DNA of 64,000 nucleotides. Source: a virus. Position numbers and translations under genes: made by a program. The DNA lies in the IMG/VR virus record IMGVR_UViG_3300028734_000017, positions 1 through 64,000 of that record. One strand, given 5' to 3'. Under the pieces are notes generated by a model. The model did not search any database. It saw nothing but the letters and a program-made list of their open reading frames with translations, and was not told the DNA's origin. Below are positions 2,031 to 61,055 of this stretch, in pieces (position 1 is the stretch's first letter; each line of letters opens with the position of its first letter).

Positions 2031-2825
2031 TTAAAATCCCTGAATTAGAGACTCGCCGTATTTGATTCCGTCGAATCCGTATTTTTTAGCCTTTTCAGCT
2101 ATTGCCTTACATTTTAAATTAAATTCGCTAATATTATTTTCTTTAGAAATTGCATTAAAATTCACGTGCGGAAACCATATATTTGCCAGAACATCTATAG
2201 GATTTTGGCTATTCTTATAAGAAATACCCATTTTATCCGTATCCATGATATTATCAAATTCAATTTCATATTTTTTCATACCTTCTTTAGGCTGCAACGA
2301 AAAGAAATTACCGTTACTGGAATTATTTTTAAAATCATCCCTTCTATATCCAATTAGCTTTACAGCATTTCCAGATTCTTCACCATTTTCATTTTCATCT
2401 ACGCCTGACTCAATACTATCCAAGAAATTATTTGGTATAGTATTGCTCTCAGCCTCTTTTTGCTGCTCATAATCATATATGTCTTGAACCTTATTTAAGG
2501 CTCTGCAAGCGTTTTTATGATCGAGATCAACAATTATAGCTCTTATAGTCTTACGTCCCTCATACAGTGCTTTTACAAGCCTATGATGACCATCTAAGAC
2601 GAATAGTTCACTGTTAATCCATATTGGTTTTTGTTCGTCATCAATATCAGCGTTATCAACCTCATGTGAAAATGTAATTCCCTGCAAGACTCTCAATATA
2701 GCTGGATTAATATCTATAACTCTGCTATTAACGCCATCGGCATTGAGTTTATCAACGACAATCTCAAAAGGTGCATTTACTTGTGGTAAATAAGCTGGTC
2801 TATGCTGCATATCTATTGTACTCAT
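2031..2825 (-). CDS. ParB/sulfiredoxin-fold domain protein
   Basis: The 264-aa protein carries a ParB-like N-terminal domain. Residues 72-90 include INSELFVLDGHHRLVKAL, with the DGHHR motif (78-82) typical of ParB/Srx-fold proteins, which use it for nucleotide or nuclease chemistry. An acidic linker (about 120-155) leads to a C-terminal region with YEIEFDNIMDTDKMGI, DVLANIWFPH and KKYGFDGIKYG, which I cannot assign. No helix-turn-helix partition domain is evident and there is no ParA neighbour, so a role in segregation is unlikely. It sits in a late operon between the nucleotidyltransferase fusion and a small hypothetical gene and also has its own late-box variant 3 nt from the ATG. Confidence 0.68.
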   Translation of the reverse strand: MSTIDMQHRPAYLPQVNAPFEIVVDKLNADGVNSRVIDINPAILRVLQGITFSHEVDNADIDDEQKPIWINSELFVLDGHHRLVKALYEGRKTIRAIIVDLDHKNACRALNKVQDIYDYEQQKEAESNTIPNNFLDSIESGVDENENGEESGNAVKLIGYRRDDFKNNSSNGNFFSLQPKEGMKKYEIEFDNIMDTDKMGISYKNSQNPIDVLANIWFPHVNFNAISKENNISEFNLKCKAIAEKAKKYGFDGIKYGESLIQGF

Positions 2826-2843: not shown

Positions 2844-5800
2844 TTAAATTTTAAATTCAATCTCTTTAACAGAACCTATAAGAAATAATGGTTTTCTGTA
2901 AGTTATCCAATTTTTTAAATTATTAGACATTTTTGCTGTTGCTCCATTTGACTTATTAACACCAATAGTTATATGTCTTTTGTCATTAATCGAACCAAAT
3001 CCAGAAACGCCTACAGCCATAGTGTTATCGTCCATAGCATAACTATCGACCTTCAATCTTACGGTGTATCCTAGATATTTCTTATAAAAATCATCTATTT
3101 CACCAAAATTAATTGTCATATGATCGCCCACAAATTCAAATCCCTCTGGAAGCATACTAGCAAAGCTATCGTATAATTTCTTTTTAGATCTATCATCCAG
3201 CACAATAGCTGAATATGCTATAAATTTTTTACTCATAGGTTTAGTTTGTTCGGGTCTGTTTAGTACTTCATCAATTGGTTTATCTTGCGGCGTTACGTCC
3301 TTGTAAAAATCGAGGTAGTATTTGTATTGAGGACTTTTTGATTTAATTCTTCTAAGATTTGCCATGATTGAGCCATCATTAGCATTTTCATCATTAAGGA
3401 TTTCAACCTGTGCATCGCCAAGTCCAAAAGAGCTAGTGTTCCCGACTCTATGTAATAATGAGAATCTGTTTAAATTTTCTTCCGAATATAGGGCATAATT
3501 GTTGTCAAACATCCCAAGTGCCTCTGACATTCCACCATGAACAAACCATGAGTTCTTACCAGCCACATATAAATCGCCATTAGGATCGCCAATAGCTCTT
3601 ACGTCCGCATCGAAATTATCCAATGATTTTGGATTTTTATAAATTGGTATACCCTTACGTTCAGTATCAACAACATATGCGACAGGTTTTTCCAATTGGG
3701 TCTGTTTGTGTGCCTTAAAATCTCTCTCAAATTCTTTCTCTGGGTCTGGAATGCCAAATCTTTTTTCAGCATACTTATCACCAACGCCTTCATCCGTTAC
3801 TGGCAACAATTTGTTTTTATCAAATGGCTTATTTAAGTCTATTCCGTCGCCGTCATAATATTGCTCATAGTATTTAAATTGTGGATTTTTTGTCGATAAT
3901 TTATCAAACAATTTATCAATATCTGCACGTGCTGCTCTATTAACTCTCATATAGCCTTCGCTTGAATCGCTTAGTCCGAATGAATTTAGCTCACCCATTC
4001 TGTGCAATAAAACATATTTATCATAGTTTCTATATAATTCATAATTGCTATCTGCAAAAAATAATGATTGACCTATATTGCCGTGTACAAAATTACCATT
4101 TTTTTGTGCTACATAAAGATTACCGTCAGCATCAGACACTGCTCTAACATTATACTCAAAATTTGCAAGAGATTTCGGGTTTTTATAGATCGGTACTTTT
4201 TCTATCTTGTCATGACCATCAGCACTATAATCATAAATTGTTGAGTCAACAAACGCAACAGGTGTATTAGTCTGCGCTAACTGATTAGCATTATATTTTC
4301 TGTTGAACTCGCCCTCTGGGTCTGGAATGCCAAATCTTTTTTCGGCATACTTGTCAGCAACGCCCTCGTTTGCAACACTATCGTCTTTAATTGAGGTATC
4401 TTTGTCAATAGAAACATTTGTAAAGAGATTACTATAATATTTAAACTGAGGATTCTTTTTCATCAGATTCTTAAATATTGTTAAGCCTTCAATACGTCTT
4501 TCCTTATATGCATTCATGTAGCTGAAACTAGTATCGCCTAAGCCGAATGAATTAGTATTATCAACCCTATTGAGCAATAAAAACTTATCCATGTGATCAT
4601 AAATGTCATTTCCGCCGATTCTCAACGCTTTTGCCATATTCTCATGAACAAATGATCCATTTTTCTGTGCGACGTATATATTTCCGTCATAATCGGCAAT
4701 TGCTCTTGTAGCTGGTTCAAAGTTACTTAAGGACTTTGGATTTTTATATATTCCGACATTCTCACGAGTGTTGTAAACATGATTAGTGCTTCTAACATAT
4801 GCAGCAGGCTGTTCTAATGTTGATTGTTTATGAGCATTGTATTTACTCTCATATTCGTTATCGGAATTTGGAATACCGAATTTCTTTTCAGCATATTTAT
4901 CGCCGACGCCTTCCTGTTCAAGAGATTCAGATACCTGATGTAAATTAAAATTTTCACTTGTGGCATCTGGAATCGCTTCGCCAGAATTAGGATCAGTCGA
5001 GTTGCCAGCATTGAGATAATTAATAATATCCTCACGATTGTTTTTCAGCTTGTCAGTATATATTTTTAATAAAATTTCCTTAAACTTGTTCTTAATTTGT
5101 TCGCCTTTAAATCCTAGATTCATAAGGTCATTACCATTAACAGGTAAATCGGCATTTGACTTAGGGTATTTACCAGACAATAATTCATCACATGCTATTT
5201 TTACAGGCATTGGAATTATATCCGATTTTAAAGACTCTGGATAAACGGCATACATGTTATAAGCAACTGATCTGGCTTTATATATGTTGGCTGCGTCGTC
5301 CTTTGAGTCGAATGCTAGCTTCAATGCTTTTATTTCCTTATAGGTGTTGATATCGCCACGCAGTTTTGTTTTAAAAAATTCGTCAGGTGTATCGATTGTT
5401 TTGTCTAACAATAAGTAAATAAACTCGCCCATTGTTTTAGCATTTCTAAACAATTCAGCCTCAGAGTTAAAATTAACAACTGGATTAGTTCCAAATAATT
5501 GCTTATAAATGCCTGTTTCTACTAAAAGATTTGCACCGACTAAATGGTCACCCTTTTGAACTATCTTATCGAACTCTGTTAGAATCCTTTCAGACGGAAT
5601 CTCTCTTATTTTCACAGCACTTCCCTGAATAGCTTTCATTGTTTCAGGTTCAATTGTGAACCCGAATCTTGATGCCATTTGAACTGCTCTAAGCATTCTT
5701 AAAGGGTCTTCGGTAAAAGCTGATGGATCAACCATCCTAATTATCTTATTTTTTATATCGTTAACTCCTCCGAAAGGATCGATTATATTTCCTTCGATAT

Positions 5801-6713
5801 CGGTAGCAATTGCGTTAATCGTCAAGTCACGTCTTTTCAAGTCGTCTTCAATTGGCAACGTATGATCGGATTTTGTTTCAATACCTTTATGACCACCAGC
5901 ACCTGTCGCTGTATCTGTTCTTGGAATTGCCACGTCTATATCCTCGGTGCTTCCTTTTGGTTTAAATTTCAATACTCCAAAAGACTTTCCTACAAGGTTT
6001 ACCTGACCGTATTTACCCAAAATTTGTTCAAGCGTATCCATTGGGACGCCTGTAATCATTATGTCAAGGTCTTTAGATTCTTTGCCTAGATATTTATCAC
6101 GCACAGCACCGCCGACAGAGTATATTTTACCACCCAGCTTCTCGATTTCGGCTGTAAAGGGAATCTGATCTAAGCTATAGATTTCGGCTTCATCCAAATG
6201 ATTAAAGTCGTCAGCAGTTCTCGTGTCAACAGGAACATTATTATAATGCTTTTTAATAAAATCGTCTATAGATTTTTTTGAATAGCCAAATATTTCGCCG
6301 ATTTCTCTGGCTTCCTCTGGCGACTTATCAGAAGCATATCCGCCATGACTGTTCATTATGTCACGAAGTCTCAAAGCCTTTTCTTTATTCGTATAAATAA
6401 TATAAGACTTCTGGTCGCCTCTCTGAATTGGGAGAACATTGATATTATTATCGTTCAATTTCTTAATAATGTCTCTATTCATGTCAACGATCAAGCCGAC
6501 TTCCCTTTTACCATTAATAAGAGTATTCAAACTACCGTTTAGATCATAAGCGTCGCTAGCATCTATTTCTTCATTAACAATAGATTTTATAGTAAGATTA
6601 CTGATATCGCCCTGATTACAAGCGGCTGACTTACCATTAAGTTTACCTAATTTACATTTGTCTTTTACTTCAACAGTTGAAGCACCCTTCATCCACGATA
6701 GTATTCTTTTCAT
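2844..6713 (-). CDS. CCA-adding-type nucleotidyltransferase fused to three repeats and a 2H phosphoesterase-like domain
   Basis: A 1,289-aa multidomain protein. Residues 1-180: unassigned, with two Cys in KDKCKLGKLNGKSAACNQGD (17-36). Residues about 185-560: class II nucleotidyltransferase (tRNA CCA-adding enzyme/poly(A) polymerase family) with GGAVRDKYLG (201-210), metal-binding DLD (215-217), RRDLTINAIA (294-303), DPFGG (312-316) and EDPLRMLRA (335-343), all apparently intact. Three copies of a ~165-aa repeat begin at about 601, 783 and 975, each opening EGV(G/A)DKYAEK(K/R)FGIP, with internal IYKNPKSL, a (Y/F)VHxxM-like segment and NSFGL, and closing near P(Q)FKYY. The last ~130 residues carry two HxT motifs (HMT 1198-1200, HIT 1247-1249) as in 2H phosphoesterases, which act on cyclic phosphates or 2'-5' bonds. 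Late-operon position suggests a late or virion protein; tRNA/RNA repair is inferred. Confidence 0.8.
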   Translation of the reverse strand: MKRILSWMKGASTVEVKDKCKLGKLNGKSAACNQGDISNLTIKSIVNEEIDASDAYDLNGSLNTLINGKREVGLIVDMNRDIIKKLNDNNINVLPIQRGDQKSYIIYTNKEKALRLRDIMNSHGGYASDKSPEEAREIGEIFGYSKKSIDDFIKKHYNNVPVDTRTADDFNHLDEAEIYSLDQIPFTAEIEKLGGKIYSVGGAVRDKYLGKESKDLDIMITGVPMDTLEQILGKYGQVNLVGKSFGVLKFKPKGSTEDIDVAIPRTDTATGAGGHKGIETKSDHTLPIEDDLKRRDLTINAIATDIEGNIIDPFGGVNDIKNKIIRMVDPSAFTEDPLRMLRAVQMASRFGFTIEPETMKAIQGSAVKIREIPSERILTEFDKIVQKGDHLVGANLLVETGIYKQLFGTNPVVNFNSEAELFRNAKTMGEFIYLLLDKTIDTPDEFFKTKLRGDINTYKEIKALKLAFDSKDDAANIYKARSVAYNMYAVYPESLKSDIIPMPVKIACDELLSGKYPKSNADLPVNGNDLMNLGFKGEQIKNKFKEILLKIYTDKLKNNREDIINYLNAGNSTDPNSGEAIPDATSENFNLHQVSESLEQEGVGDKYAEKKFGIPNSDNEYESKYNAHKQSTLEQPAAYVRSTNHVYNTRENVGIYKNPKSLSNFEPATRAIADYDGNIYVAQKNGSFVHENMAKALRIGGNDIYDHMDKFLLLNRVDNTNSFGLGDTSFSYMNAYKERRIEGLTIFKNLMKKNPQFKYYSNLFTNVSIDKDTSIKDDSVANEGVADKYAEKRFGIPDPEGEFNRKYNANQLAQTNTPVAFVDSTIYDYSADGHDKIEKVPIYKNPKSLANFEYNVRAVSDADGNLYVAQKNGNFVHGNIGQSLFFADSNYELYRNYDKYVLLHRMGELNSFGLSDSSEGYMRVNRAARADIDKLFDKLSTKNPQFKYYEQYYDGDGIDLNKPFDKNKLLPVTDEGVGDKYAEKRFGIPDPEKEFERDFKAHKQTQLEKPVAYVVDTERKGIPIYKNPKSLDNFDADVRAIGDPNGDLYVAGKNSWFVHGGMSEALGMFDNNYALYSEENLNRFSLLHRVGNTSSFGLGDAQVEILNDENANDGSIMANLRRIKSKSPQYKYYLDFYKDVTPQDKPIDEVLNRPEQTKPMSKKFIAYSAIVLDDRSKKKLYDSFASMLPEGFEFVGDHMTINFGEIDDFYKKYLGYTVRLKVDSYAMDDNTMAVGVSGFGSINDKRHITIGVNKSNGATAKMSNNLKNWITYRKPLFLIGSVKEIEFKI

Positions 6714-6722
6714 GCGATTAAA

Positions 6723-7376
6723 TTATTTCTTTGCCTTCTGATTGTTCTGAATTTCTCTGATAGCCTCTATTACCATTGTGCGAATAGTGTCACGATTTTC
6801 CTGAATACCTTTCTTAATTCTCTCATTACTATACATTTCAAGCAATGTTGAGTTGATAGTATCTTCCATCAAGACTTCAAGATTTTCTGCCAAATATGCC
6901 GCAACTAATTTCTCAATGTTTGCACTGGTTGTACCAGCATTAGGACTATTGACGATCTTTTCCTTTATTTCAGGAGAAGCGAATTCGGTAATACTTTCAG
7001 CTAGAGTTCTATTTGATTTCTTTCCAAAATTTTCAAACAATTTTTCGTCTCTATCTCTATTATCAATGTTGACAGGTGGTCTTGTTGCTGCCCTTGGTGT
7101 AGGTGTCGTATTTGATATAATATCGGGCGATTCGTTTACAATCTTCCTGTAGTCATTTTGCAATTCATTAGGATCTTTTTTCTCAGCCAAAAGTTCAATT
7201 ACTTTGGTTGCATGTGATGGACGACCAGAGTCACGTGATTTCAATAAACTATTTAAAAAGAAGTCTTTAGGTGTCCCTGTTGCTTCCGTTATTCCCAATG
7301 ACGCATTTCTTGCGGCTTGGCTTTCATCGATTGCTTTACGTAAACCGTTTAAATCGATATTACTGTTCTTTGCCAT
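6723..7376 (-). CDS. Hypothetical protein, late operon
   Basis: A 217-aa polar, mostly helical protein that I do not recognise. It has an N-terminal helical segment, a Pro/Thr/Arg-rich middle (TTPTPRAATRPPVNIDNRDR, about 90-110) and a C-terminal half predicted as amphipathic helices (AAYLAENLEVLMEDTINSTL, then ERIKKGIQENRDTIRTMVIE). The start lies 9 nt upstream of the large nucleotidyltransferase fusion in the same late operon. The shape would suit a structural or scaffolding-type virion component, but no motif supports a specific call. Confidence 0.6.
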   Translation of the reverse strand: MAKNSNIDLNGLRKAIDESQAARNASLGITEATGTPKDFFLNSLLKSRDSGRPSHATKVIELLAEKKDPNELQNDYRKIVNESPDIISNTTPTPRAATRPPVNIDNRDRDEKLFENFGKKSNRTLAESITEFASPEIKEKIVNSPNAGTTSANIEKLVAAYLAENLEVLMEDTINSTLLEMYSNERIKKGIQENRDTIRTMVIEAIREIQNNQKAKK

Positions 7377-7402: not shown

Positions 7403-8272
7403 CTATTTCTTCAAACTATCGAAATAAGTCACAGCTTTATTATGCATGTTGTCACGAAAGCTTTTATCGTTAATTACCTTCGGGGCATTTAATTTAGCGT
7501 AAAGATCAGCGAGATTTCCTATTATGGATTCTTTAGGAACTCTAGTATCGTTAGCATTTCGCAAAGATACACCATTTTTATCATTTACCACTATATAATT
7601 TCTTGCAGGCTTATGTTTTACTTTAGTTACTGCATTATAAAAATCCTTTATATCATTTGGATTTGACGTTGGCTTTTGCATATCCAATGGCTCTTGTGTT
7701 TCAGGTGTAATGGTTGCCGCTGTTGTAGCAGGCTTGACCTTATCTATATTGCTACCATTAGGTGTCTCAGTTTCAGGCGCATTTGTTACGCCGCCTATCT
7801 TAACAGACGCCATTACGCCACCCATCATTTGCTTATCATTCGGGTTATACACGTCAGGGATATCCTCTGGCGCAACGCTAAAATGCTTACCAGTTGGTAA
7901 TGCCGATGTTATATAATCTAATCTGAATAATCTCCATGCTGGTTTTTCACCAGACTTATTCGTTTTTGTGTCTGTATGATTCTGAAATTCGTGATTATTT
8001 CTACGTCTCTTACCTAATCCGCTAAAAGAATCGCTTGATCCACTTTCTTGCCATGCCCTAACAACTAAATCGCCATTCCTTGTCTTTCCTATAACAAAAG
8101 GCTTAATAATTCTATAGCCTTTCAATGTCGTATCTGGCGATGCATAATAAATGTACAGGTATTTATTATTCTCGATAGCATCAATAAATATATTGGCACT
8201 AACGGACTCATTCAGGATACCACGAAAGGTGTGAATGTTTTCGAAAAATATTTTTAGTTCATTAAGAAACAT
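7403..8272 (-). CDS. WYL-like domain protein
   Basis: In this 289-aa protein the N-terminal ~140 residues resemble a WYL domain: AIENNKYLYIYYASPD, then GYRIIKPFVIGKTRNGDLVVRAWQ and later AWRLFRLDYITS, which correspond to the I-Y, R-x-I-x-P and R-F-R-L-D-R-I strands of that beta-rich ligand- or nucleic-acid-sensing fold. WYL domains are usually attached to a helix-turn-helix; none is visible here. The C-terminal half has a low-complexity linker and a basic end (KDFYNAVTKVKHKPARNYIVV). It stops with TAG, lies 3 nt downstream of an 80-aa hypothetical gene and is part of the late operon, which is an unusual place for a transcription regulator. Confidence 0.55.
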   Translation of the reverse strand: MFLNELKIFFENIHTFRGILNESVSANIFIDAIENNKYLYIYYASPDTTLKGYRIIKPFVIGKTRNGDLVVRAWQESGSSDSFSGLGKRRRNNHEFQNHTDTKTNKSGEKPAWRLFRLDYITSALPTGKHFSVAPEDIPDVYNPNDKQMMGGVMASVKIGGVTNAPETETPNGSNIDKVKPATTAATITPETQEPLDMQKPTSNPNDIKDFYNAVTKVKHKPARNYIVVNDKNGVSLRNANDTRVPKESIIGNLADLYAKLNAPKVINDKSFRDNMHNKAVTYFDSLKK

Positions 8273-8531: not shown

Positions 8532-9233
8532 TTAATTATAATTTTTAAAGCATATTGTTATGTATTCAATCAAATTTGGAACTGTGTCCAAATGTTTCAT
8601 GCCCTCAATGGTATACCAACCAAAAGTCGAATGTTCATCATTCAGTTTAATTTTGTCAATATCGCCAGTATATCTGCTTGCAAATATGTGTTCACAATTA
8701 ATTGTGTTATCATATATTCTTTCAAGCGTTAATCTTTTTATAAAATTGTCGAGAGCTATACCAGTTTCTTCGAATGTTTCCCTTTTGCATGCCTGCTCAG
8801 GAGTTTCGTCATCTTCAATTTTTCCACCTGCCAATCCATATTTATTAGCTGCCCAACAATTATTCCCACGTTTAAGCAATAGAAATTCATTGTTTTCGTT
8901 AACAATGATTGCCAACGCATTTTCCTGTTTTTGAAAATCATCACTTTCATTTAATGCACCTATTTCAATTTTTCTTGCCGATCCCAATGCTGTATCAACG
9001 AAATTTTTCATATCTTCGCCGCCAGCTAATAGATACTGAACATCGTTTGCGCCCATGCTTGCTAAATCATGTTTCAGTCTTTTTAATGCCTGATATGTTA
9101 ATGATCCATTTTTCAGAATGAACTTAGCTCTACGAATTCCATCACTGTCAGGATATCTTGTAATAGCAGCACTTATAACGTTTAATACATTCTTTGGCAC
9201 TGCAAAATTTTTACCGTATAATTCGCTATTCAT
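8532..9233 (-). CDS. Nudix hydrolase with an extra N-terminal domain
   Basis: The 233-aa protein has a complete Nudix box, G-x5-E-x7-REUxEExGU, from G137 to I159 (GGKIEDDETPEQACK then RETFEETGI), so metal-dependent hydrolysis of a nucleoside diphosphate-linked substrate is expected; the substrate is not deducible. Residues 1-95 form a separate helical domain (YGKNFAVPKNVLNVI, GIRRAKFILKNGSLTYQALK, QYLLAGGEDMKNFVDTAL) that is not part of the Nudix fold. The ATG overlaps the preceding stop as TAATG, indicating translational coupling with the 199-aa gene. Late expression is inferred from the promoter at 9,852-9,860. A Nudix enzyme made late might act on capped RNA, nucleotide pools or virion-delivered targets. 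Confidence 0.85.
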   Translation of the reverse strand: MNSELYGKNFAVPKNVLNVISAAITRYPDSDGIRRAKFILKNGSLTYQALKRLKHDLASMGANDVQYLLAGGEDMKNFVDTALGSARKIEIGALNESDDFQKQENALAIIVNENNEFLLLKRGNNCWAANKYGLAGGKIEDDETPEQACKRETFEETGIALDNFIKRLTLERIYDNTINCEHIFASRYTGDIDKIKLNDEHSTFGWYTIEGMKHLDTVPNLIEYITICFKNYN

Positions 9234-9832
9234 TATTTACTAACCTCTATTAGATTCTTCAATTTATTTTTTGAGCCATTGTCTAGCTTGTTAATCAGAC
9301 CAGCTATCTTTGTAACACTTTTGTCCGTAATATCCCTATCATTAGATTTTGCTGATAGAAAATTATCAATCTTTTTATCGACGATGGTATCTTCATCTAC
9401 AATAGACTCGTCCACACTTGAAGGCTTATCGCCGAATTTTTTTACAATCTCTTTAGCATACACCTCGAAGTACTTAACGACATCCTTTGATATGGTTTCC
9501 TTTTCGGTATAAATTCTAAAATCGTTTTTCAAGCTATTAGGGTTCTTATAGTAATGTTTCATAAGTTCCTCATAGAATTTACGGAGAATTTCAAGCGTAT
9601 CTGTTAAGTCTTTATTCTTCTCGTCAGAGCCTTCGCCCTCAAAAAATGGTAGCATGACAGAACCAAAATATCCCATCATGCTATCACCGAAAGGTTGATG
9701 CCCTACAGCCATATTATAGTCAGTAATTTTTTTAGAAACTGTGCTCATATTTGGGCCAGTTTTTGGTACATTATCGCTGCCAATAAGACCGCCGTCAGCA
9801 TCTATAACTTCATTTATAAGAATAACTTTCAT
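9233..9832 (-). CDS. Hypothetical protein, first gene of a late operon
   Basis: A 199-aa protein of unknown family. The N-terminal third contains small conserved-looking turns (NEVIDADGGLIGSDNVPKTG, GHQPFGDSMMGYFGSVMLPF); the rest is charged and helical with an acidic stretch (SVDESIVDEDTIVDKK). It is the first gene after a near-perfect late box whose edge lies 20 nt upstream of the ATG, and it is coupled (TAATG) to the Nudix gene. A virion or late assembly role is inferred from this position only. Confidence 0.65.
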   Translation of the reverse strand: MKVILINEVIDADGGLIGSDNVPKTGPNMSTVSKKITDYNMAVGHQPFGDSMMGYFGSVMLPFFEGEGSDEKNKDLTDTLEILRKFYEELMKHYYKNPNSLKNDFRIYTEKETISKDVVKYFEVYAKEIVKKFGDKPSSVDESIVDEDTIVDKKIDNFLSAKSNDRDITDKSVTKIAGLINKLDNGSKNKLKNLIEVSK

Positions 9833-9851: not shown

Positions 9852-9860
9852 TATAAATAC
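9852..9860 (-). promoter_or_regulatory. Late promoter box, operon 9,832 to 1,687
   Basis: The minus strand reads AGTATTTATATAAAA, a full match to the shared late box, with the box edge 20 nt from the ATG at 9,832. It would drive the 199-aa gene, Nudix, 80-aa, WYL-like, 217-aa, nucleotidyltransferase fusion, ParB-like and 110-aa genes. Confidence 0.7.
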
Positions 9861-13630: not shown

Positions 13631-14599
13631 TCATAATTCGTCGTCGCCTTCGTCACTCACAATAGATGAATGAGATTTTGTTATCATCACGCTAAATGGC
13701 TTAACTGACTCAACTGAATTCCATTTACCTATTGATGGTGCTTTAAACTTATCGAATGAAATAATATCGTCACACTTGCTTTTTTCAGGTTTATTAAATT
13801 CCTCAAATGGAATTTCCAACTGTGTACCATCATAAGATTCCCTGTATTTACGATACTCATAAGCATTCTTATTAACGATCTTATTACCATCACGGTCAGT
13901 CATTGAATAGCCTCTGCTGAACATTGCTTCAAGTTGTTTATCAGCTATTTTATCCTGATAAACTTTTGGTAAGTCCATTCCAAAATACTCTGTTGTTATG
14001 ATAGTTTTACATGGTACACATTCGCAACAAGGTGTATATCCCAAAATTCCATCATGTTCACAGTCATCCAGCCTAGGATTTTCGCAAGATACAACTAAAT
14101 CACGATATTTGGAAGGTAATTTATCAGCCATTTGATATTTTTTCATCTTTATAATCGGAAACTTCAATGGTACAAGCGATTCGCATATTGCTCCATATGA
14201 CTTATAAATGTTTTTAATATCCTTAAGGTATGAAATCGCATCGTCGTTTGACACATATCCCACCTGAATTTCCTCGACTCCACGAATACCTTGGCTAAAT
14301 ATCATTGCCATAATCCAAATAGGAACTTGCTTAAAATATAGGCTTCCCTCATTGGCGTCAACATGTGCCGTTAAAACATACTCAATGTGATTTAACTTGG
14401 AAGGGTAATCCTTGTTAAATTCGTTCGAGAATAATTTATACAGCAACTCAATACGGTTCTTTTCCAGCTGTGCCTTATGCCTGTTATTCTCAATTGTCAC
14501 ATAAATCGGCGTAACGGTATTACCGTCCATAAGATTTTTCCATACAAGATAAGTAGAATCAAGTCCACCTGAAAACAAAATAGCAACATTCTTACTCAT
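13631..14599 (-). CDS. queC: QueC-like 7-cyano-7-deazaguanine synthase
   Basis: The 322-aa protein begins with the PP-loop ATP pyrophosphatase signature SGGLDST (10-16) and contains the QueC-type QVGYVSNDD (about 112-120) and a Cys-rich zinc site (C172, C180, C191, C192, C194, C197 in the YTPCCECVPC region). QueC converts 7-carboxy-7-deazaguanine to preQ0, the precursor of queuosine in tRNA and, in several phages, of deazaguanine bases in DNA. The C-terminal ~100 residues extend beyond the usual ~230-aa enzyme. It lies 7 nt after the HARP/SNF2 helicase gene and just upstream of the polymerase gene. No QueD, QueE, FolE or transglycosylase gene is present in this window. Internal spacing differs enough that a diverged relative of QueC is possible. 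Confidence 0.75.
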   Translation of the reverse strand: MSKNVAILFSGGLDSTYLVWKNLMDGNTVTPIYVTIENNRHKAQLEKNRIELLYKLFSNEFNKDYPSKLNHIEYVLTAHVDANEGSLYFKQVPIWIMAMIFSQGIRGVEEIQVGYVSNDDAISYLKDIKNIYKSYGAICESLVPLKFPIIKMKKYQMADKLPSKYRDLVVSCENPRLDDCEHDGILGYTPCCECVPCKTIITTEYFGMDLPKVYQDKIADKQLEAMFSRGYSMTDRDGNKIVNKNAYEYRKYRESYDGTQLEIPFEEFNKPEKSKCDDIISFDKFKAPSIGKWNSVESVKPFSVMITKSHSSIVSDEGDDEL

Positions 14600-60320: not shown

Positions 60321-61055
60321 ATGAAAACTGGAATTTATCGAATTCGAAATACCATTACCAATGACAGCTATATTGGCTCTGCTAAGAATATCATAAGAAG
60401 ATGGCAAAGACATAAAAGCGGATTGATACATAATAAGCATGAAAATGCTCATTTACAAAGAGCGTGGAATAAATATGGCGGCGATAACTTTGTTTTTGAA
60501 ATTGTTAAAGAATGTATGTTCGATGATTTGCTTGAGATTGAGCAAAAATATTTAGACTTGAAGCCTGAATATAATATTGGCATAATATCTAGTGGTGGAG
60601 ATAATTTAACGAACAATCCGAATAGAGACGATATTATTCGACGAATGAAAATTAGCTTGCGTGAGACAATTCTTAATATGAGCGATGACTGTCGTAAAAC
60701 AAAATATTCGAGACCGATGGAGTTAAACCCTAATTGGAAGGGTGGTATAAATATTAAGTATTGTAAATGTGGTAACGTTATGAGTTATTCAGCTAAAACT
60801 TGTAGAAAATGTTCGGATAAGTCTGGCGATGGAAATTCATTTTTTGGAAAACATCACAGTAATGTTACAAGAGAGGCTTTATCTAATAGCATGACTGGAA
60901 AATATAATGGCGAACAAAACATTTCAATTATAGTTAATGATATTGAATATCGATCAGCTGGTGAGGCTTCAAAAGTATTATGTATTCCAATGGCTACCAT
61001 AAGGTGGCGAGTTATGAGTAAAAATAATAAATTTAGCAATTATAAATACAAATGA
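60321..61055 (+). CDS. GIY-YIG homing endonuclease
   Basis: A 244-aa protein. The catalytic domain has TGIYRIRN (GIY, 4-6), NDSYIGSAKNIIRRWQRH (YIG), LQRAWNKYGGDNFVFEIV and the E-containing LLEIEQKYLDLKPEYN. A zinc-finger-like CKCGNVMSYSAKTCRKC (about 148-164), a NUMOD3-like SGDGNSFFGKHHS region and a C-terminal NUMOD1-like HTH (IIVNDIEYRSAGEASKVLCI) follow. It is a free-standing mobile nuclease, not within an intron, placed directly after thyA. Its stop overlaps the next start by 4 nt. Confidence 0.88.
   Translation: MKTGIYRIRNTITNDSYIGSAKNIIRRWQRHKSGLIHNKHENAHLQRAWNKYGGDNFVFEIVKECMFDDLLEIEQKYLDLKPEYNIGIISSGGDNLTNNPNRDDIIRRMKISLRETILNMSDDCRKTKYSRPMELNPNWKGGINIKYCKCGNVMSYSAKTCRKCSDKSGDGNSFFGKHHSNVTREALSNSMTGKYNGEQNISIIVNDIEYRSAGEASKVLCIPMATIRWRVMSKNNKFSNYKYK

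Follow-up and report, generated by a model that had tools for sequence, protein, structure and literature searches.

Polyvalent proteins unite unrelated enzyme modules in one phage polypeptide, shuffle them among relatives and are expected to be packaged and injected, but how they release their parts has so far been answered only by suggested embedded metallopeptidases (Iyer et al. 2017, PMC5512222). In T4, the internal proteins IPI and IPIII and the enzyme Alt are packaged in the head with propeptides ending in L/I-x-E. The prohead protease gp21 cleaves behind the Glu of this motif; Alt, an enzyme delivered into the host, is processed at either end (PMC9026906). Here we describe a gene at 2844-6713 (minus strand) of a 64,000-nucleotide stretch (hereafter the window; positions 1 to 64,000 of IMG/VR record IMGVR_UViG_3300028734_000017, which has 88,157 bases). 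Its product is probably a polyvalent protein of a T4-like phage that is packaged in the head as a cleavable polyprotein and divided by the prohead protease into individual injected enzymes. We infer cleavage, packaging, injection and substrates from the modules, their shuffling, the motifs at their junctions, the same motif in the capsid protein and the presence of a protease gene. The gene is arranged as follows (a slash marks a predicted cut, (-) the minus strand).

2844..6713 (-), polyprotein gene, 1,289 amino acids (aa): header, N-terminal domain, CCA nucleotidyltransferase, three repeat units and 2H phosphoesterase
6570..6713 (-), header, a predicted propeptide or targeting element, residues 1-48, TVEVKDKCKLGKLNGKSAACNQGDISNL..SIVNE; conserved
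6570..6578 (-), predicted prohead-protease site after E48, IVNE/EIDA; conserved junction
6189..6569 (-), N-terminal domain of unassigned function, residues 49-175; Pfam offers no more than brief, weak similarities
6189..6197 (-), predicted prohead-protease site after E175, HLDE/AEIY; LNE in the nearest relatives
4926..6188 (-), class II CCA-adding tRNA nucleotidyltransferase, residues 176-596, by Pfam, PDB, NCBIfam and PHROG matches
4926..4934 (-), predicted prohead-protease site after E596, QVSE/SLEQE/GVGDK
4368..4913 (-), repeat unit 1, residues 601-782, conserved core 655-759
3792..4367 (-), repeat unit 2, residues 783-974, core 842-948; junction VANE/GVADK non-canonical
3267..3791 (-), repeat unit 3, residues 975-1149, core 1024-1132; junction VTDE/GVGDK non-canonical
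3267..3275 (-), predicted prohead-protease site after E1149, KPIDE/VLNR
2847..3266 (-), 2H phosphoesterase of the tRNA-ligase cyclic phosphodiesterase (CPD) and CNPase type, residues 1150-1289; HMT at 1198-1200, HIT at 1247-1249

Unrelated modules are preceded at their junctions by one short motif (LNE/, INE/, LKE/, LDE/). We counted it in about 40 non-redundant long proteins, gathered by scans with the 2H and CCA alignments, against the background of a same-sized window slid along the same proteins in all relatives. The pattern [ILVM]xE stands before the CCA module in 39/39 cases (13.8 expected), shortly upstream of the fused 2H module in 19/19 (6.7 expected), before the N-terminal domain in 19/19 (4.8 expected), after the header in 33/35 (7.7 expected) and before repeat units in 18/26 (5.2 expected), each with P<1e-5. 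The strict T4 form [IL]xE was found at 27/39 CCA, 16/19 2H, 14/19 N-terminal, 26/35 header and 9/26 repeat junctions, with 9.6, 4.4, 3.4, 5.3 and 3.4 expected. A first junction test with other anchors had given 30/30 for CCA and 25/28 for 2H, the three misses belonging to a different protein family. Asparagine occupies P2 in 58 of the 110 junction sites, and [ILVM]NE is 32 times as dense at junctions as inside domains. In free-standing 2H and CCA genes the motif is mostly missing, and their Met start lies where the fused modules have the site.

As in gp21 substrates, L/I-x-E occurs at the predicted processing positions, and the phage record encodes both a gp21-type protease (PF03420, 3.4e-18; G000:70791-71255) and a gp23-type capsid protein (1.6e-70) with the same motif, ..LSYMINE/STDSASSGQFETVAFPVIRRVF at the maturation position. 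This capsid site is kept as [ML]INE/[SA] in nearly all relatives read (one diverged copy has LLKE/T), and in the contigs tested for both genes a strong gp23 match was accompanied by gp21, with one exception in which gp23 lies at the contig end. Record-wide, the motif excess is largest in a gp22-like scaffold protein, the strongest of all, and in a head-gene-cluster protein of 783 aa; below the top 16 genes, the other 47 contain 19 [ILVM]NE against 20.7 expected, i.e., a chance level. The agreement of five junction types, the free-standing controls and the capsid protein speaks against chance. As a separate observation, the gp21 match is split in two within one frame of 615-653 aa at G009:63143-64738, G016:295747-297414 and G018:214260-215930; in the records of L108, L142 and L018 it looks as if an intein or other insert interrupts the protease gene.

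Several points weigh against the proposed cleavage. The sites of the window polyprotein are VNE, LDE, VSE and IDE, of which only LDE and IDE have the strict gp21 form, the junctions of repeats 2 and 3 (VANE, VTDE) are non-canonical, and the MTYxEF start of many long relatives (see below) is absent. The motif count over the whole protein shows no excess (14 versus 17.5 expected), so position alone was used, and motifs inside domains are not depleted (24 versus 26.2 expected; e.g., ILTE at 377-380 in the CCA module). The motif is only three residues long, the case depends on its position across homologous and non-independent relatives, and the windows and domain seeds were chosen after the pattern had been noticed. 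The protein might instead be delivered uncut, like the N4 virion RNA polymerase, which is packaged uncut (PMC5512222), or be cut by an embedded metallopeptidase, with the L/I-x-E motifs as accidental linker features. One relative (L038) does have a weak M78-like peptidase match, but we regard this explanation as unlikely, because Pfam revealed no peptidase domain in the window polyprotein or in most relatives scanned, and because the motifs are present at nearly every junction type and match the phage's capsid site. The embedded zincin metallopeptidase that is frequent, though not universal, in polyvalent proteins is thus absent from the window polyprotein.

Under cleavage by the prohead protease, the polyprotein would be made late alongside the head proteins and drawn into the prohead core, where the gp21-type protease would cut at the L/I/V/M-x-E junctions and leave separate folded enzymes in the capsid that would be delivered into the host together with the DNA. 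Expected from such cutting are a header propeptide (1-48), the domain at 49-175, the CCA-adding enzyme (176-596), the repeats (about 597-1149) and the 2H enzyme (1150-1289); since the junctions of repeats 2 and 3 are non-canonical, the three repeats may stay together in one piece. The junction motif is that of the propeptides of T4 IPI, IPIII and Alt, but here several enzymes lie on one chain with a predicted cut site at each junction. Compared with the described polyvalent proteins, for which embedded metallopeptidases were proposed, release would apparently be performed in trans by the prohead protease. The gp21 cleavage motifs at module junctions are the new point, and they shift the interpretation from a single repair enzyme towards a cleavable head-packaged polyvalent protein. 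That the sequences point to the head-maturation protease makes the release of polyvalent parts directly testable; if the proposal is true, junction motifs would allow module boundaries to be read from sequence and help to find further injected enzymes, including the N-terminal and repeat domains.

The 1,289-residue open reading frame (ORF) is real and intact, with relatives: it runs from a single ATG through 1,289 codons without interruption, and the gene call is based on the intact ORF and on the same domain hidden Markov models (HMMs) in 40 related proteins. The polyprotein recurs at 100% identity in two further assembled contigs and has relatives in L004 and L005 (57-59% identity, best segment) and in L006 (50%). 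The identical copies and those at 57-59% argue that the frame is not a join from one assembly, and the concern of an earlier, sequence-only reading that two genes had been fused by assembly can be dismissed. In 50,697 phage records, tblastn found no match to the N-terminal, repeat or 2H region; a diverged 2H query alone was successful, with relatives in phages of the crAss-like and Agrobacterium groups. The 2H family was also scanned once against the species genome collection, with a negative outcome, and in Flavobacterium phage immuto, among the nearest cultured relatives by capsid protein, no polyprotein modules occur in the 41 kb read.

The distinct relatives (about 40, 708-3,104 aa) come from contigs of T4-like and jumbo phages. 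The CCA module is present in nearly all of them, while header, N-terminal domain, repeats and 2H module are variably present and change their order. Additional modules comprise a polyvalent-type ADP-ribosyltransferase (ART), a GNAT acetyltransferase, an S-adenosylmethionine (SAM) lyase, seen in L038, and a second class of 2H domain that matches 2'-5' RNA ligase and Acb1. ART-PolyVal (PF18760) scores above the cut-off in the relatives P0002, P0003 and P0004 (6.2e-8, 8e-11 and 3.9e-9); the window polyprotein has no ART domain. Functionally unrelated domains (CCA, 2H, N-terminal, repeats) thus share one phage polypeptide, and ART (PF18760, in the nearest relatives), GNAT and 2H are the very modules of the polyvalent proteins, the 2H module being present in the window protein itself. 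Such shuffling of unrelated modules across relatives is the polyvalent pattern (PMC5512222), and on these comparisons the gene product is best classified as a polyvalent protein, not as a dedicated single-chain repair enzyme. A difference is the core, which here is a full class II CCA enzyme and there a minimal Pol-beta nucleotidyltransferase. Two large relatives, L038:1131-8381 (2,417 aa) and L105:3186-10295 (2,370 aa), combine SAM lyase, ART-PolyVal and Acb1-like 2H modules, with the M78-like peptidase in L038; these modules are possible injected counter-defence enzymes.

The sequence-only reading had recognized the CCA core, the repeats and the 2H domain, all of which are retained here, and had overlooked the header, the domain at 49-175, the shuffling and the protease motifs. 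It had proposed a single-chain tRNA or RNA repair factor, in which CCA addition would be coupled to the opening of cyclic phosphates on the intact chain. RNA 3' ends are the substrate of CCA and 2H enzymes alike, and some half of the approximately 40 relatives unite the CCA module with a tRNA-ligase-type 2H; however, in about half this 2H domain is missing or replaced by other modules, ART, GNAT and SAM lyase are added in relatives, protease motifs part CCA and 2H in every fused case tested, and no ligase partner (PF09414) was found in the contigs of this phage. With modules unrelated to tRNA in the relatives and the predicted cutting, the single-chain factor is not supported, and we consider it quite unlikely. 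By contrast, the junction motifs, the location among head-protein genes and the N-termini of relatives that resemble capsid-targeting sequences appear to give good support to its guess that the protein is packaged and delivered.

The CCA module displays all motifs of an apparently intact class II core (GGAVRD 201-206, DLD 215-217, RRDLTINAIA 294-303, DPFGG 312-316, EDPLRMLRA 335-343), i.e., the DxD, RRDxTINA and EDPxR motifs of the class with its catalytic head, neck and tail. Pfam (PolyA_pol PF01743, 3.9e-25; PolyA_pol_RNAbd PF12627, 8e-14), PDB 1miv, a CCA-adding enzyme (1.3e-28), and PHROG 2244 (2e-64) agree with NCBIfam, in which NF009814 'CCA tRNA nucleotidyltransferase' matches with E 3e-48 over profile positions 13-392 of 396, under that model's equivalog cut-off. 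With regard to CCA versus poly(A) specificity, the best and full-length NCBIfam match is the CCA enzyme and the pcnB match is weaker and partial, all scores lying under the equivalog cut-offs. The polyprotein holds a complete CCA-type nucleotidyltransferase whose active sites are intact by sequence and whose activity is predicted. It shares head, neck, body and tail regions and catalytic motifs with class II CCA-adding enzymes (PDB 1miv, 6ibp; PHROG 2244), but is set within a multi-module chain, whereas the enzyme is free-standing in other phages.

At the C-terminus, two HxT motifs lie 49 residues apart (H1198, H1247). The Pfam family tRNA_lig_CPD, the CPD domain of fungal tRNA ligase, matches 35 of the 41 members of the 2H family (best 9.5e-8), and among the 41 sequences the His of motif 1 is invariant and that of motif 2 conserved in at least 90%. 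For a structure model with a mean predicted local distance difference test (pLDDT) of 95.7, Foldseek ranked the mouse CNPase catalytic domain first among solved structures (E 6e-4, probability 1.00); the nine best matches have template modelling (TM) scores, relative to the query, of about 0.65-0.74. A sequence profile search of the PDB with the 2H family gave chance matches only, and the fold search decided the assignment. The duplicated fold and the two H-x-[ST] motifs are those of the 2H superfamily, in accordance with the first reading of the terminal domain; as modelled, the C-terminal module holds a 2H fold closest to CNPase and tRNA-ligase CPD, with a predicted activity. CNPase and the fungal CPD domain have the same fold and two HxT motifs, but the module is smaller (about 130 versus about 210 aa), has about 11% identity to CNPase and has no kinase or ligase partner in its chain.

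If injected, the two RNA enzymes could maintain or recover functional tRNA 3' ends during the initial minutes of infection, the CCA enzyme by rebuilding CCA and the 2H enzyme by opening 2',3'-cyclic phosphates or cleaving a nucleotide signal. Maintenance of tRNA 3' ends early in infection by the two RNA enzymes is the likeliest role, with an about even chance of being correct; it is plausible, yet less certain than the polyprotein itself. The main alternative role is signal cleavage, in which the 2H module would degrade the cyclic-oligonucleotide signals of cyclic-oligonucleotide-based antiphage signalling systems (CBASS) or type III CRISPR and the CCA enzyme would be an independent passenger. 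This alternative bears solely on the substrate and would also fit a polyprotein; such a role was proposed for 2H domains in the polyvalent-protein study (PMC5512222), and other 2H modules in relatives match the anti-CBASS protein Acb1 weakly to moderately (2e-6 to 1e-3), but the window module matches tRNA_lig_CPD and CNPase, not Acb1, and we find the idea doubtful here. For the T4-like and jumbo phages of this clade as a whole, we tentatively suggest, at somewhat less than an even chance, that one gene encodes a polyprotein which is packed, cut by the prohead protease in the capsid and delivered as ready-made separate enzymes before phage expression begins, with a tRNA 3'-end kit (CCA addition and opening of cyclic phosphates) at its centre and interchangeable counter-defence modules.

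Large relatives have 34-53 tRNA genes, some with a transfer-messenger RNA (tmRNA), and a 3'-encoded CCA was seen in only 16 of 110 tRNA genes inspected, so a CCA enzyme would be useful to them. The enzymes might form an intracellular late cluster that matures the phage's own tRNAs and is not packaged. This is very unlikely for the present phage, as no tRNA gene occurs in its two contigs and as protease motifs, head-gene neighbours and ART/GNAT modules would be left unexplained; the targets of a packaged CCA enzyme would be host tRNAs, barring tRNA genes in the portion of the genome that is missing. The tRNA arrays of L170-L174 have at least two copies for many amino acids and a tmRNA, and their 3' ends are usually the discriminator plus C, without CCA. 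Repair of the T4 type combines a kinase-phosphatase and an RNA ligase; a PF09414 ligase is present in 8 of 14 records and absent from G000, G001 and G002, which are possibly incomplete and were not searched for a T4 Rnl1-type ligase. Cleavage in the anticodon is not repaired by a CCA enzyme. With neither a PF09414 ligase nor a tRNA gene in the contigs of this phage, the suggestion that the protein answers host anticodon nucleases is unproven.

The header HMM matches 34 of 40-41 related proteins, and the N-terminal domain is kept in 19 relatives (alignment A5). A resemblance of this domain to an NleE-like methyltransferase was rejected, the match spanning about 23 residues under the cut-off. 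Of the three repeats of about 165 aa described earlier, the number stands (they open at 601, 783 and 975) and the length does not, the spacing being 175-192 aa. The repeat domain is confidently modelled (pLDDT 95.2), with no fold match in the PDB or a viral library and, in the profile search that had been suggested, no Pfam match. A joint alignment of repeats and 2H (A4) was discarded owing to misaligned repeat ends.

The operon upstream of the polyprotein gene comprises the following features.

6723..7376 (-), small head-core-like protein with LGITE/A, IVNE and SITE; 4 [ILVM][NTK]E motifs versus 1.2 expected, P 0.03
7403..8272 (-), WYL-like protein, N-terminal ..FRGILNE/S
8532..9233 (-), Nudix hydrolase of the same operon, Pfam NUDIX 1.2e-16
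9233..9832 (-), first operon gene, N-terminus MKVILINE/V with the site at residue 8
9852..9859 (-), promoter-like element TATTTATA, sense, 19 nucleotides before the operon's first ATG; common to structural genes

Neighbours in this operon open with a short stretch that ends in the motif (MKVILINE/V, ..FRGILNE/S, ..LGITE/A). The element TATTTATA is the reverse complement of T4's TATAAATA and stands on the sense strand at most 45 nucleotides upstream of 12 of 49 genes, mostly structural (0.5 expected), with examples in the window at 9852, 31667, 36660, 39271, 51293, 56425 and 63333. The late promoter noted earlier is right only in part: the TATAAATA near the gene is on the opposite strand, and the sense TATTTATA at the operon head (9852-9859) could serve the gene. 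In relatives, 30 ORFs start M..[YF]x[EDN][FY], and 24 of these belong to the long class (740-2,688 aa), of which many members begin MTYxEF; T4 IPIII starts MKTYQEF and IPI MKTFKEF, an N-terminus that is T4's capsid-targeting sequence, and the MxTYxEF type of the T4 internal proteins is thus similar in many polyprotein relatives. In the window polyprotein the header may do the capsid-targeting job.

Adjoining the polyprotein gene, 2031-2825 (-) of the window encodes a protein with a weak ParB-like match and a C-terminal part, after a TATTTATA element. Beyond the window but in the same record, L010:3429-5924 (-) encodes a large terminase subunit (831 aa) that contains an intein-like insert (CVGKDSIV.. 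to ..NISNHNC). The ORF at 13631-14599 (-) of the window encodes a protein resembling ATP-pyrophosphatases (FSGGLDSTYLVWKN), which may be a QueC-like enzyme acting in deazaguanine modification of DNA, and that at 60321-61055 (+) resembles, by eye, a GIY-YIG homing endonuclease directly 3' of a thymidylate synthase-like gene.

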